DNA from: Alphaproteobacteria bacterium
GTDB lineage: Bacteria > Pseudomonadota > Alphaproteobacteria > Thalassobaculales > Thalassobaculaceae
Length of the DNA: 53,591 nt
NCBI GenBank assembly: GCA_024742605.1
Contig: JANSYC010000024.1
Coordinates: 1 to 53,591, forward strand
Reading direction: 5' to 3'
Shown: one piece after another, positions 26,735 to 30,761 of the stretch
How the letters are laid out: each line of letters begins with the position of its first letter
How positions within the stretch are numbered: position 1 is the first letter of the stretch
Program-made: the position numbers and the translations under genes
The notes under the pieces: model-generated
What the model was told of the DNA's origin: nothing
What the model saw: the letters and a program-made list of their open reading frames with translations, nothing else
The model's database searches: none

Positions 26735-27262
26735 TCAACTCATCGCGGCGGCGGGATTCTGAAACAGCCCGACGCGGATGTCCTTCGCTTCGAATACGGT
26801 CTCGCCATCGCAGTCAACCGACCCGTCGGCGATCCCAAGAAACAGTTTGCGGCTGATGATCCGCTTAAGGTCCAGCTTGTACCTCAAGACCTTGGCGCTC
26901 GGCAGGACCTGGCCGGAGAACTTCACCTCGCCCACCGACAGGGCACGGCCCGAGCCCGGTCCGCCCAGCCAGCCGAGCGTGAAGCCCAGCAGCTGCCACA
27001 AGGCATCCATACCCAGGCATCCGGGCATGACCGGATCGTCCTCGAAATGGCACTGGAAGAACCAAAGGTCCGGCTTGATCTCGAACTCGGCCTTGACCTC
27101 GCCCTTCTCGTGGGCGCCGCCCTCCTGGCTGATATGCGTGATGCGATCGAACATCAGCATGGGCGGCAAGGGGAGGCGCGCGTTTCCGGGGCCGAACAGG
27201 CGTCCGTGCGCGCACTCGAGAAGCTCTTTATACGAAAAACTTGATTGAGATTTGAAATCCAC
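26735..27262 (-). CDS. fabA: 3-hydroxydecanoyl-[acyl-carrier-protein] dehydratase/isomerase
   Basis: Introduces the cis double bond of anaerobic unsaturated fatty-acid synthesis; 175 residues, dimeric hot-dog fold. Catalytic His72 ([12 protein letters not shown]) and Asp86 (LGMDALWQL) match E. coli His70 and Asp84. I chose the GTG at 27262 because the family N-terminus ([19 protein letters not shown]) follows directly and GGGAAG lies five bases upstream; the frame is open to 27334 without similarity. Transcribed away from irr. Confidence 0.95.
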
Positions 27263-27362
27263 CGGCACTTCCCTGGACGTCTGATGATCGCACCTGCATG
27301 CAGAAGACGATCTGTTTCCCCTAGACCGGCCCAATCCGCAAGGGCCTTTTCATACAGTTTTA

Positions 27363-27377
27363 GTCGAAGTGTTCGAC
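27363..27377. promoter_or_regulatory. Inverted repeat in the fabA-irr divergent region, operator candidate
   Basis: GTCGAA-GTG-TTCGAC is a perfect 6+3+6 inverted repeat. The GAA-N3-TTC core is shared with the Irr box (TTTAGAA-N3-TTCTAAA) but the outer bases differ, so Irr binding is uncertain. On the minus strand it lies between TTGCAA and a weak ACTAAA, a possible fabA promoter. Confidence 0.35.
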
Positions 27378-27469
27378 AGTCTTGCAAAACAAACCATATC
27401 GACGCCTGTCATGCAAAGGCGGACGGGCCCGCGAACGGCACGGAACCCTTCCAAAGACCCCGCGAAGAA

Positions 27470-27498
27470 TTGCCCCCAACTGACGCGTTCCGTATATT
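27470..27498 (+). promoter_or_regulatory. Candidate irr promoter
   Basis: TTGCCC (27470-27475), 17-base spacer, TATATT (27493-27498), 82 bases ahead of the irr start. With the inverted repeat at 27363 this accounts for the signals I can see in the 318-base fabA-irr interval (27263-27580); no gene is apparent there. Confidence 0.5.
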
Positions 27499-27580
27499 AT
27501 CAAAGTATGCGGACGACCGCTCAGCACAGGCTCAAGTCTTTCGGGACAGCCGACACCTCACAATTTGTGGTTTGAAGCCC

Positions 27581-28081
27581 ATGATCCAACCCCTGCCCTC
27601 CAATCTTTCCGAGCCGGATCGCACCGACGACCCCACGGGCGGCCACCCGGGCCTGGCGGAGCGGCTGCGGAGCGCCGGTTTGCGGCCAACCCGTCAGCGG
27701 GTCGCCCTGGCCCGGCTGCTGTACGGTGCGGCCGACAGACACGTGACGGCGGAGCAGCTGCATACCGAAGCGCAGCAGGCGGGCGTGCAGGTCTCACTGG
27801 CCACCGTCTACAACACCCTGCATCAGTTCACCGACCACGACCTTTTGCGCGAGGTGGTGGTCGAGACCAGAAGGTCGTATTTCGACACCAATGTTCACGG
27901 GCATCACCATTTCTTCGAGCTGGAAACGGGCAGGCTGATCGACATTCCAGCGAACGACATCAGCATCTCCGGCCTGCCGCAGGCGCCGGAGGGGGCCGAG
28001 ATCGAACGGGTCGATCTGGTGATCCGGGTGCGGCGTCGAACCGCAGGGGCGGTCGCTGACCCAGCGCCGACGGACGGGTAA
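27581..28081 (+). CDS. irr: Iron response regulator Irr, Fur family
   Basis: Haem- and iron-status-sensing Fur-family regulator of 166 residues that in alphaproteobacteria controls haem synthesis, iron storage and iron-using proteins through the Irr (ICE) box. The winged helix is at about residues 25-85 (LRPTRQRVALARLL, SLATVYNTLHQF). HGHHHFF (His106, 108-110) is the Irr-type histidine cluster, in place of the Fur metal-site cysteines, followed by ELETGRLIDIP. ATG 27581 was chosen because it begins a normal-length Irr; the frame is open upstream to 27245. Position beside fabA is conserved in this class. Confidence 0.93.
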   Translation: MIQPLPSNLSEPDRTDDPTGGHPGLAERLRSAGLRPTRQRVALARLLYGAADRHVTAEQLHTEAQQAGVQVSLATVYNTLHQFTDHDLLREVVVETRRSYFDTNVHGHHHFFELETGRLIDIPANDISISGLPQAPEGAEIERVDLVIRVRRRTAGAVADPAPTDG

Positions 28082-28102
28082 TTTTCTGTCGCGCCGGTTT
28101 TG

Positions 28103-28119
28103 TTTGGAGCAGTTCTAAG
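28103..28119. promoter_or_regulatory. Irr-box-like site upstream of the rubrerythrin operon
   Basis: TTTGGAGCAGTTCTAAG matches the Irr box TTTAGAA-N3-TTCTAAA at 11 of 14 defined positions. It is intergenic and ends four bases before the -35 element of the promoter at 28124. Confidence 0.5.
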
Positions 28120-28123
28120 CCGC

Positions 28124-28153
28124 TTGACCACCCTCATCGGGACTTTCTATAAC
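28124..28153 (+). promoter_or_regulatory. Promoter of the rubrerythrin operon
   Basis: TTGACC (28124-28129), 18-base spacer, TATAAC (28148-28153). It is one of the best sigma-70-type promoters in the window and would give a 5' UTR of about 110 bases before the rubrerythrin start. Confidence 0.65.
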
Positions 28154-28269
28154 CTGATCGTCTGAACAGAGGCTTTCGGCGCCCGGATGGCACCACAAGG
28201 TGACCCGCCTCCGAAGGCCGAAGCGCGCCGCGACACACCGTTCACTCACCCTGTCGATTGGAGACAAGC

Positions 28270-28692
28270 ATGTCCGAACTCAAGGGCTCAAAGACCGAGG
28301 AAAATCTCAAAGAGGCGTTTTCCGGCGAAAGCCAGGCCAACCGCCGCTATCTCTATTTCGCACAGAAGGCCGATATCGAGGGCTATAACGACGTCGCCGC
28401 CGTGTTCCGGTCGACCGCCGAAGGCGAGACCGGCCACGCCCACGGCCATCTGGAATTCCTCGAGGAGGTCGGAGATCCGGCGACCGGCGAGCCGATCGGC
28501 GAGACCTCGGACAATCTGAAGGCTGCGATCGCCGGCGAGACCCACGAGTACACCGATATGTACCCTGGCATGGCGCGGACCGCCCGTGACGAAGGTTTCG
28601 ACGAGATCGCCGATTGGTTCGAGACCCTCGCGAAGGCCGAGAAGAGCCATGCCGGCCGCTTCCAGAAAGCCTTCGACTCGCTCGACGCCTGA
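28270..28692 (+). CDS. Rubrerythrin family protein (erythrin domain only)
   Basis: Non-haem di-iron ferritin-like protein of 140 residues; rubrerythrins reduce hydrogen peroxide in the cytoplasm. The four-helix ligand set is visible: Glu20 ([10 protein letters not shown]), Glu53-x-x-His56 ([10 protein letters not shown]), Glu90 (AGETHEY) and Glu124-x-x-His127 ([10 protein letters not shown]). The C-terminal rubredoxin domain of classical rubrerythrin is absent, so electrons must come from another protein, perhaps the Fe-S protein encoded next. ATG 28270 follows GGAGAC; the ATG four codons upstream is less well placed. Confidence 0.92.
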
Positions 28693-28791
28693 TCAGGCCG
28701 ATCCTGTGATCCGGGCTCCGGTGGCTTGATCCTGACCGGATCGGCAGCCGGGGCCCGCCGATCTCCAGCTCCTCAAATCGCGGAGACTCCC

Positions 28792-30144
28792 ATGGCGGAA
28801 GGCAGCCTCGGGGCGCCGACACGGCACCCGATCCCCTGGCGCGAGCCGAACTTTCACGACGAGACCAAGCTCGACGAGGAGCTCCGCCGTGTGTTCGACA
28901 TCTGCCACGGCTGCCGCCGCTGCTTCAATCTCTGCGACAGCTTCCCGCGCCTGTTCGACCTGATCGACGACAGCGAAAGCGGCGAGCTCGATACGGTCGA
29001 AAGCAAGGATTTCGCGCCGGTGGTCGATGCCTGCACCCTGTGCGATATGTGCTTTCTGACCAAATGCCCGTACGTGCCGCCGCACGAGTTCGACCTGGAC
29101 TTCCCGCATCTGATGCTGCGCTACCGGTCGATGCAGAACGCCAAGGGCGAGATCCCGGCGGCCGAAAAGCAGATGACCGAGACCGACCGCAACGGCAAAC
29201 TGGCGCGTCTGGCGCCCGGCCTGTGCAATTGGGTCTCCAAGGAGGACAACGGCGTCACCCGTCCGCTCATGGAACGCACCCTGGGCGTGCATCGGGAGGC
29301 CAAGCTGCCGAAGTTCACCGGCAAGTCGCTGGACCAGTTCCGGCAGAGCGACGTGCCGGCGCTCAACAGCGCGGCCCCGGCCCATGGCCGCAAGGCGGTG
29401 ATCTACGCCACCTGTTTCGCCAATTACAACAATCCGGAAATCGGCCGCGCGGCCCTGCAGGTACTGGCCAAGAACGGGGTCGCGACCGAAGTGGTCTATC
29501 CGTCCTGCTGCGGGATGCCCCAGCTCGAACACGGCGATATCGCGCGGGTGGCGAAGACCGCCGCCAAGGTGGCCGCCGAAATGCGTCCGTATGTGGACGC
29601 CGGCAAGGCGGTCCTGGCACTGGTGCCGTCCTGCGCGCTGATGCTGAAATTCGAATGGCCGCTGATCCTGCCGGACGACGAGAACGTCAAGGCGTTGTCG
29701 GCCGCCACCCGGGACATCGACGAATACCTGATCGACATCGCCAAGACCGAAGGGCTGGCGGAGGGGCTTCAACCGCTGGACGGCGGAGTGTTTCTGCACA
29801 TCGCCTGTCACTCCCGCGCCCAGAACATCGGCCAGAAATCGACGGAACTGCTGAAGCTGATCCCTGAAATCGACCTCAAGGTGCAGGAACGCTGTTCCGG
29901 CCATGGCGGGTCCTGGGGCGTGATGAAGGCGAATTTCGAGACCGCCCTCAAGGTCGGCAAACCGGTGGCCCGTCAGGCCCGCAAGGCCGGGAAAACCTAT
30001 ATCGCCTCTGGCTGTCCGCTGGCGGCCGACCATATCCTTCAGGGGATGGAGCGGATCGAGGGCGAGGCCGCGCTGCCGAGCCAGACCGATCATCCCATCC
30101 AGATTTTCGCGAGAGCCTACGGATTCCGAAGTTCGACGCCGTGA
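28792..30144 (+). CDS. Heterodisulfide-reductase-like Fe-S oxidoreductase (GlpC/HdrD family)
   Basis: 450 residues. Two ferredoxin-type clusters: Cys38, 41, 44, 48 (CHGCRRCFNLC) and Cys81, 84, 87, 92 (CTLCDMCFLTKC), then two C-terminal cysteine-rich modules, the first with PSCCGMPQ near 240, the second with ERCSGHGG near 367 in which the usual second Cys is Ser. Such proteins pass electrons between a donor and a thiol, quinone or partner protein. It lies 99 bases after rubrerythrin and its stop overlaps the region just ahead of the DUF3501 gene, so the three form an operon. Physiological role not established. Confidence 0.9.
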   Translation: MAEGSLGAPTRHPIPWREPNFHDETKLDEELRRVFDICHGCRRCFNLCDSFPRLFDLIDDSESGELDTVESKDFAPVVDACTLCDMCFLTKCPYVPPHEFDLDFPHLMLRYRSMQNAKGEIPAAEKQMTETDRNGKLARLAPGLCNWVSKEDNGVTRPLMERTLGVHREAKLPKFTGKSLDQFRQSDVPALNSAAPAHGRKAVIYATCFANYNNPEIGRAALQVLAKNGVATEVVYPSCCGMPQLEHGDIARVAKTAAKVAAEMRPYVDAGKAVLALVPSCALMLKFEWPLILPDDENVKALSAATRDIDEYLIDIAKTEGLAEGLQPLDGGVFLHIACHSRAQNIGQKSTELLKLIPEIDLKVQERCSGHGGSWGVMKANFETALKVGKPVARQARKAGKTYIASGCPLAADHILQGMERIEGEAALPSQTDHPIQIFARAYGFRSSTP

Positions 30145-30176
30145 CCGACCAAAGACAACATGGAGCGCGCCCCGAT

Positions 30177-30761
30177 ATGGCGAACCAGATCACCGCAGCC
30201 GAGATTATGGACATGGACGCCTACGCCAAGGTCCGCACGGACAAGCGCAAGGCCCTGGTGCAGGTGAAGAAGGACCGTCGGGTGGCCCTGGGCCCCCACG
30301 CCACGTTCTATTTCGAGAGCTACGACACCATGTGGCTGCAGATCCACGAGATGCTGTTCATTGAGAAGGGCGGCGCCGCACAGATCCCGGACGAGCTTGA
30401 AGCCTACAATCCGCTGATTCCCAACGGCCGGGAGCTGGTCGCCACCCTGATGTTCGAGATCGACAATCCGGTGCTGCGCAAGGAGGTCCTCTCCAAGCTC
30501 GGCGGGGTGGAGGAGACCTGTTTCCTGAAGTTCGCAGGCCACGAGGTGGTCGGCACCGCGGAGGAGGACGTCGACCGCACCACCGCCGACGGCAAGGCCT
30601 CCTCGGTGCAGTTCATCCATTTCGCCCTGTCCGACGCCCAGGTCGCCGCCTTCAAGACGCCGGGCACCGAGGTGACCCTCGGCATCAAGCATCCGGCCTA
30701 TGCCAACATGACCATCCTGCAGGAGGCCGCCCGGGCGGCGCTCGCCAAGGATTTCGACTGA
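30177..30761 (+). CDS. DUF3501 family protein
   Basis: Protein of 194 residues of unknown function. Family features: an N-terminal MDMDAYAKVRTDKRK, RRVALGPHATFYFES, and WLQIHEMLFIEK. There is no signal peptide or membrane segment; one Cys is seen (EETCFLKFAG). It is repeatedly encoded with rubrerythrin and the Hdr-like Fe-S protein, which points to a shared pathway (family knowledge and inference). ATG 30177 is preferred since it begins the conserved region and GGAG lies upstream; a GTG at 30141 overlaps the preceding stop (GTGA) and cannot be excluded. Confidence 0.87.
   Translation: MANQITAAEIMDMDAYAKVRTDKRKALVQVKKDRRVALGPHATFYFESYDTMWLQIHEMLFIEKGGAAQIPDELEAYNPLIPNGRELVATLMFEIDNPVLRKEVLSKLGGVEETCFLKFAGHEVVGTAEEDVDRTTADGKASSVQFIHFALSDAQVAAFKTPGTEVTLGIKHPAYANMTILQEAARAALAKDFD

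Follow-up and report, generated by a model that had tools for sequence, protein, structure and literature searches.

The iron control elements (Irr boxes) of Bradyrhizobium, Rhizobium, Brucella and Rhodobacter lie near promoters in organisms that encode the cognate Irr protein, and the DNA described here shares both features. The Irr box consensus that we applied, TTTAGAA-N3-TTCTAAA, was taken over from an initial annotation of this DNA, with no paper as its source. Irr and RirA are alphaproteobacterial with few exceptions, and Irr binds DNA without heme; in the presence of heme, binding is lost or Irr is degraded (available sections of PMC7762939). Among the reported Irr targets are bfr, ccpA and mbfA (blr7895), a rubrerythrin-like/membrane ferritin gene. 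In R. sphaeroides the mbfA transcript starts inside the box, unlike the arrangement that we describe below, whereas the ccpA transcript begins about 40 nt downstream of the box, as it would here (available sections of PMC3413700). Compared with the known elements, the site in our DNA is weaker, its target is a soluble rubrerythrin operon beside irr itself, and the box abuts the -35 element.

PerR is a peroxide-sensing Fur-family repressor. The system described here resembles a PerR regulon in outline, in that boxes for a regulator of the Fur family stand ahead of rubrerythrin and, among the relatives, ahead of catalase-peroxidase and dps genes, but the regulator in our case is Irr by family score. 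The target genes correspond to the aerobic-type cluster RBR-RFO-DUF3501, whose evolution is treated in PMC5114695; the main text of that paper has no words starting with "irr" or "regulat". No report of a site at rbr was found among the titles and openings of literature on Irr and rubrerythrin, Irr boxes, DUF3501, or Irr with katG or dps, a scope outside which Rodionov 2006, Rudolph 2006 and Small 2009 fall. PMC7860042 does not contain Irr as a whole word, and the available parts of PMC5459824, PMC10374146 and PMC12912731 make no mention of an rbr site. The site at the rbr operon is best seen as a good instance of a switch of known kind.

The window (the whole 53,591-bp stretch of DNA analysed) carries at positions 27581-30761, all on the forward strand, irr, a 188-bp gap from the irr stop at 28081 to the rbr ATG at 28270, rbr, a GlpC-like Fe-S gene and a DUF3501 gene (Table 1). 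PF02915, PF02754 and PF12007 are matched consecutively, as in the aerobic-type rubrerythrin cluster; against PRK11168, the Fe-S oxidoreductase gene scores 179.3 bits, under the cut-off of 278. The irr product scores 206.9 bits against NF045678 (cut-off 150) and 191.3 bits against NF045677 (cut-off 170) and also matches PF01475, bearing out the initial annotation's placement of irr as the next gene upstream. Models for PerR reach 32-69 bits, far under their cut-offs (PerRB, 68.7 bits against 250; PerRA, 55.2 against 200). The sequence HGHHHFF supplies the histidines of a putative HXH heme-binding motif, and HHH was found in 83 of the 91 rbr-adjacent regulators. There is no cysteine in the 166-aa Irr of the window, so the B. 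japonicum-type heme regulatory motif, which does not define the family, is absent; the comparison of cysteines is limited, as the N-termini of the other adjacent regulators lie mostly beyond the aligned part. A PDB search with Irr gave 21 matches; Fur, Zur and PerR structures were among them, and none of the molecules bore the name Irr.

Table 1. Features of the irr-rbr locus in the window.
Feature	Coordinates	Strand	Remarks
irr	27581..28081	+	166 aa, ATG picked by eye; Fur-family iron response regulator, IrrA type
Candidate Irr box (iron control element), TTTGGAG-CAG-TTCTAAG, TTTGGAGCAGTTCTAAG	28103..28119	+	11/14 to TTTAGAA-N3-TTCTAAA
-35 element TTGACC of the rbr promoter	28124..28129	+	Read from the sequence; TTGAC conserved after the box
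-10 element TATAAC of the rbr promoter	28148..28153	+	Kept in G001 and G005
rbr	28270..28692	+	140 aa; rubrerythrin without rubredoxin domain ("aerobic-type"); PF02915, 108.9 bits
GlpC-like Fe-S oxidoreductase carrying a CCG domain (RFO in PMC5114695)	28792..30144	+	PF02754, 43.6 bits
DUF3501 protein	30177..30761	+	PF12007, 203 bits; start codon by eye, 30174-30761 scanned

On re-reading, the sequence, coordinates, 11/14 match and 188-bp gap given for the box in the initial annotation were all exact, as was its distance of 4 bp from TTGACC-N18-TATAAC, with an 18-bp spacer. The box thus stands, as an iron control element should, just ahead of the promoter of an iron/peroxide gene. By eye, the -35 and -10 hexamers match at 5/6 positions each; our promoter scan missed this promoter because it accepts only T as the sixth base of the -10 hexamer. 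TTTGGAGCAGTTCTAAG is the sole site with three or fewer mismatches on either strand of the window. One hundred dinucleotide shuffles of the window gave a mean of 0.06 sites (6/100 had any). In the 4.47-Mb source genome we counted 25 such sites, and 40 when the pattern was reversed; the 25 correspond to about 0.3 sites in a window and 0.001 in 188 bp. The site is therefore rarer than was first claimed, the initial estimate of about two matches per window having been too high on either measure. The same counts, 25 against 40, led us to reject a genome-wide Irr regulon drawn from a three-mismatch scan. As the loose pattern is not enriched genome-wide, a sequence match would not by itself prove function, and conservation must bear the argument.

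We collected rbr relatives from 56 of 98 related genomes (the first 30 taken as loci, with 27 stretches for the other 26) and from the best 80 of at least 590 matches in named contigs, a set of best-scoring relatives that is biased to close homologues. After removal of 4 duplicates, 133 loci remained, and irr lies just upstream of rbr in 91 of them. A tblastn search for rbr in plasmids returned 28 records, the best from Burkholderia at 82%. Conservation upstream of rbr orthologues was the check on which the initial annotation had staked its reading, and the box is indeed kept: with the window excluded, 75 of 90 irr-adjacent loci have a match of at least 11/14 within 250 bp. Stricter lines retain 63 loci at 12 or more, 40 at 13 or more and 17 with a perfect match, and a looser one (at least 10/14) takes in 83/90 against 10.4 in shuffles. 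Dinucleotide shuffles of those 90 regions average 1.58 loci at 11 or more (maximum 7) and 0.22 at 12 or more (maximum 2). The 3-bp spacer gives 75 loci, and other spacers from 0 to 7 give 2-19. Permuting the half-site in 139 ways yields an average of 3.1 loci and a top count of 30, for AATAGTT, which probably comes from the recurring CTATTGAC at the box end and the -35 element. When similar upstream regions were grouped, 70 of the 84 groups had the box in a majority of their members.

At the 11/14 line the box is missing from 15 of the 91 irr-adjacent loci, and in 8 of these TTGAC still follows the best, degenerate match by 3-7 bp. Clear absence was seen at the four rbr-bearing genomes of one same-family genus (L168, L169, L171 and L173), where rbr is nearer to irr (the distance from the end of the irr alignment is 9-58 bp at three loci and 123 bp at one), and at single loci such as L101 and L174. 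In G077 (L012) irr adjoins rbr, yet the best match is 8/14. We also observed that in G026, G030, G034 and G035, all from one same-family genus, the interval between irr and rbr is shorter and rbr has lost its box, and that katG there has a TTT(G/T)GATAGATTCTAAA box (12/14) about 210 bp before its aligned start. G084 (L021), in turn, has two perfect Irr boxes before rbr, 32 bp apart.

The position of the box relative to the promoter was examined in the 90 loci that combine a match of 11 or more with an rbr of over 65% identity. TTGAC starts 1-6 bp past the box in 73 of them, at 3 or 4 bp in 60, so that the window, at 4 bp, shows the typical distance. Counted upstream from the start of the -35 element, the box centre lies at about 12-13 bp (10-15). 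In those 73 loci the best -10 element, chosen from four spacers (16-19), matches at 4 or 5 of 6 positions in 54 and at 3 of 6 in 17; a -35 match of at least 5/6 follows directly from the requirement for TTGAC and was not counted as evidence. The consensus scan placed the box over the spacer, over the -10 element or just downstream of it in 11/90 loci (L021, L067, L072, L083, L085, L086, L103, L104, L111, L120 and L121), which include Methylocystaceae, contigs labelled Gammaproteobacteria and some marine bacteria. It placed neither kind of promoter in 6/90 (L016, L019, L054, L059, L068 and L106). That the motif recurs in a matching position ahead of this operon in most of the related loci covered makes it very likely that this is an Irr control spot.

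We then asked whether the box tracks an Irr-type protein, using the loci where irr is not directly beside rbr and scoring each genome with NF045678. The box occurs at rbr in 14 of 16 loci from genomes with an Irr-type protein, and a box of at least 11 in 0 of 18 from genomes without one, all of them with close rbr homologues (including G041, G055, G087 and contigs labelled sphingomonad and Gammaproteobacteria). Fisher's test gives 8.6e-8, a value to be taken only as a guide because the lineages are not independent. Eight distant rbr homologues (L175-L182, 30-55% identity) were left out; adding them gives 14/18 against 1/24, the exception being L176, with no Irr and an 11/14 match. The loci with Irr take in seven at 120-140 bits, under the curated 150 (L072, L086, L097, L103, L111, L120 and L121), and the strict 150-bit line leaves the box in 8/9. 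In at least 4 of the 16 (L004, L011, L072 and L170) irr is near rbr without being directly beside it. Conserved at orthologous promoters (75/90), set just ahead of TTGAC (73/90) and following its regulator (14/16 against 0/18), as expected of an iron control element, the site supports by comparison the proposal of the initial annotation that Irr would directly control the rbr module from just upstream of -35, and makes a stronger case for it than that annotation could. With confidence short of certainty, we expect that Irr binds the 17-mer and regulates rbr.

Two side observations concern the edges of this distribution. Irr-like proteins of 124-140 bits occur with L086, L097, L103, L111, L120 and L121, mostly on contigs labelled Gammaproteobacteria, and the rbr box reaches at least 11/14 in 5/6 of these. 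L123, L050, L065 and L070, on contigs mostly labelled sphingomonads, come from genomes without Irr; about 120-150 bp before rbr, L123 and L050 have a TGCGAATTATTCGCA palindrome and L065 and L070 a partial copy. In relatives with Irr this place is occupied by the Irr box, and a Fur-type operator may perhaps have replaced it in these four loci.

Other candidate Irr targets were sought in the window and in relatives. Autoregulation of irr was rejected as weak at most: only 13/89 orthologous irr upstream regions reach 11, and in the window the best site in 27240-27600 is 9/14. Seven of the 25 source-genome sites were read by eye, none at a recognised iron or peroxide gene: L031 falls in an AT-rich stretch between frames, L032 in a terminator-like stretch behind a phasin-like gene, and L034, L035 and L041 inside reading frames, while L033 stops 2 bp short of the earliest possible start of a 219-aa frame and L038 precedes by 19 bp a gene whose N-terminus is LysR-like. 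At one mismatch, 36 chosen Irr genomes have 39 sites where the reversed control has 20, and 11 Irr-free genomes have 9 against 22 (G057, which has Irr, was set aside). By coordinates, 16 of the 39 sites, in 15 genomes, are at rbr, so the excess over the control is about what rbr alone explains. Ten of the 23 non-rbr sites were read by eye. Four are at dps-like genes (G089, G077, G038 and G063) and two at katG (G039 and G044); the G069 site has a broken katG frame close by, the G074 site is at a DUF2061-like gene, and the remaining two (G076 and G094) look unconnected with iron.

Homologues of dps and katG were scanned at the best 30 of 42 and the best 30 of 39 places, respectively, with Irr counted from 120 bits and each upstream region reckoned from the point where the alignment starts. 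A box of at least 11 precedes dps in 6/24 Irr genomes and 0/6 Irr-free ones (Fisher 0.30) and katG in 10/24 and 0/6 (Fisher 0.07); the contrast between genomes with and without Irr is not significant alone, Markov shuffles give about 2%, and the queries were found via their boxes, with 5/6 dps and 2/10 katG sites known beforehand. By eye, the box lies 4-7 bp before a -35-like hexamer at the dps of G077, G089, G063, G044 and G088 and the katG of G039, as it does in G074; the remaining 10 dps and katG boxes (of 16) have a different arrangement or a promoter that was not placed. Because boxes precede dps and katG in some relatives, Irr looks like a peroxide-defence regulator there. The dps and katG homologues of the source genome have no box (8/14 each). 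In G002, G013 and G027, of one same-family genus, Irr occurs with no rbr match and with 12-13/14 boxes before katG, as if the rbr and katG peroxidases substituted for each other under Irr. One tentative reading, which we think has somewhat less than an even chance, is that outside rhizobia Irr is mainly a PerR-like peroxide-defence switch, with the rbr operon, in many cases its neighbour, as the core target, katG and dps as alternates and a conserved operator abutting -35, and that the global iron role in rhizobia would have grown from it later.

How strong the window's own copy is bears on whether Irr would still act there. Its PWM score is 16.75; only 2 of the 74 other irr-adjacent sites of at least 11 score lower, as does the site of G001, which was kept out of the matrix. 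An ancestral operator might have decayed in the window, leaving rbr free of Irr, and this low rank, the 11/14 match, the four genomes of a same-family genus without an rbr box and the bare dps and katG of the source genome would all fit. We nevertheless consider such decay improbable: G001, of the same genus, is identical at all 14 scored positions although the flanks have changed (identity 47/51 from box to -10, 16/22 upstream and 25/47 downstream), and the three deviating letters (G in place of A at positions 4, 7 and 17) do occur in the other sites, at frequencies of 0.07, 0.05 and 0.09 with pseudocounts included. The window's copy looks like a kept, low-affinity site, and its effect may be modest, as it ranks among the weakest of the family. 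Fur-family operators share an inverted-repeat plan, and use of the box by another member (Fur/Mur or PerR) would be compatible with that likeness and with a second Fur-family gene in the source genome, G000:C45 (40.8 bits to the Irr model). The absence of boxes (0/18) from genomes with only weak (under 70 bits) or no matches to the Irr model makes this highly improbable.

Regulation by Irr is well supported by the comparison; the sign of control is not, and the initial annotation made no choice between activation and repression. The analysis shows a motif in a conserved position, its tie to an Irr-type gene in the genome and a recognisable core promoter; binding, a response to heme, and repression in preference to activation are what we infer. 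If Irr does bind and regulate, repression is the reading that we lean towards, and for binding and repression at low iron or heme taken together the chances are only slightly better than even. The 17-mer would be the operator for the Irr encoded just upstream, and an Irr dimer on it would abut the -35 element. With heme or iron scarce, Irr would persist, cover the site and block the sigma factor from -35, keeping the rubrerythrin/Fe-S protein/DUF3501 operon low; with heme, and probably also peroxide, plentiful, Irr would be lost or released and the operon would come on. Degradation through a B. japonicum-type cysteine motif is unlikely, as the window's Irr has no cysteine; sensing through a histidine cluster is another route (available sections of PMC7762939). 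Repression is favoured because the exact TTGAC in 73/90 loci makes the core promoter look workable without an activator, because the 11 loci with the box over the spacer, over -10 or just downstream have it where binding is usually repressive, and because R. sphaeroides ccpA, with a similar spacing, is mildly repressed, its transcript being 1.8-fold higher without Irr at low iron (PMC3413700, in part). When oxygen is absent, Magnetospirillum expresses a rubrerythrin gene 2.1-fold less and a perR-like gene 2.4-fold more (PMC9549626, in part), which may fit repression loosely.

Under the opposite sign, Irr bound upstream of -35 in low heme or iron would touch RNA polymerase and raise rbr, and iron-limited cells would replace heme peroxidases by a di-iron one. 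The near-fixed distance between box and -35 in 73/90 loci would also suit an activator, and box location sets the sign of Irr control according to the available part of PMC7762939. The rbr of "Ca. Pelagibacter ubique" (SAR11_0399) rises 1.57-fold (p 0.025) in iron limitation (PMC2864753, in part), a direction opposite to that expected of repression and so evidence against it, and the SAR11-type loci L071 and L079, stand-ins for HTCC1062, have the same -35-abutting box. The exact TTGAC, the ccpA precedent and the 11 loci of other lineages with the box over -10 or near the start, where activation would be unexpected, count the other way, and the rubrerythrin product itself requires iron. Activation therefore strikes us as rather unlikely, and repression by Irr is the reading that we prefer.

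For the rubrerythrin/RFO/DUF3501 cluster, which is widely conserved but has received little study, the finding points to a likely regulator and a likely signal in Alphaproteobacteria. It also offers a natural series of promoters, with the box before -35 or over -10 of one operon, in which to test how position sets the sign of Irr control.
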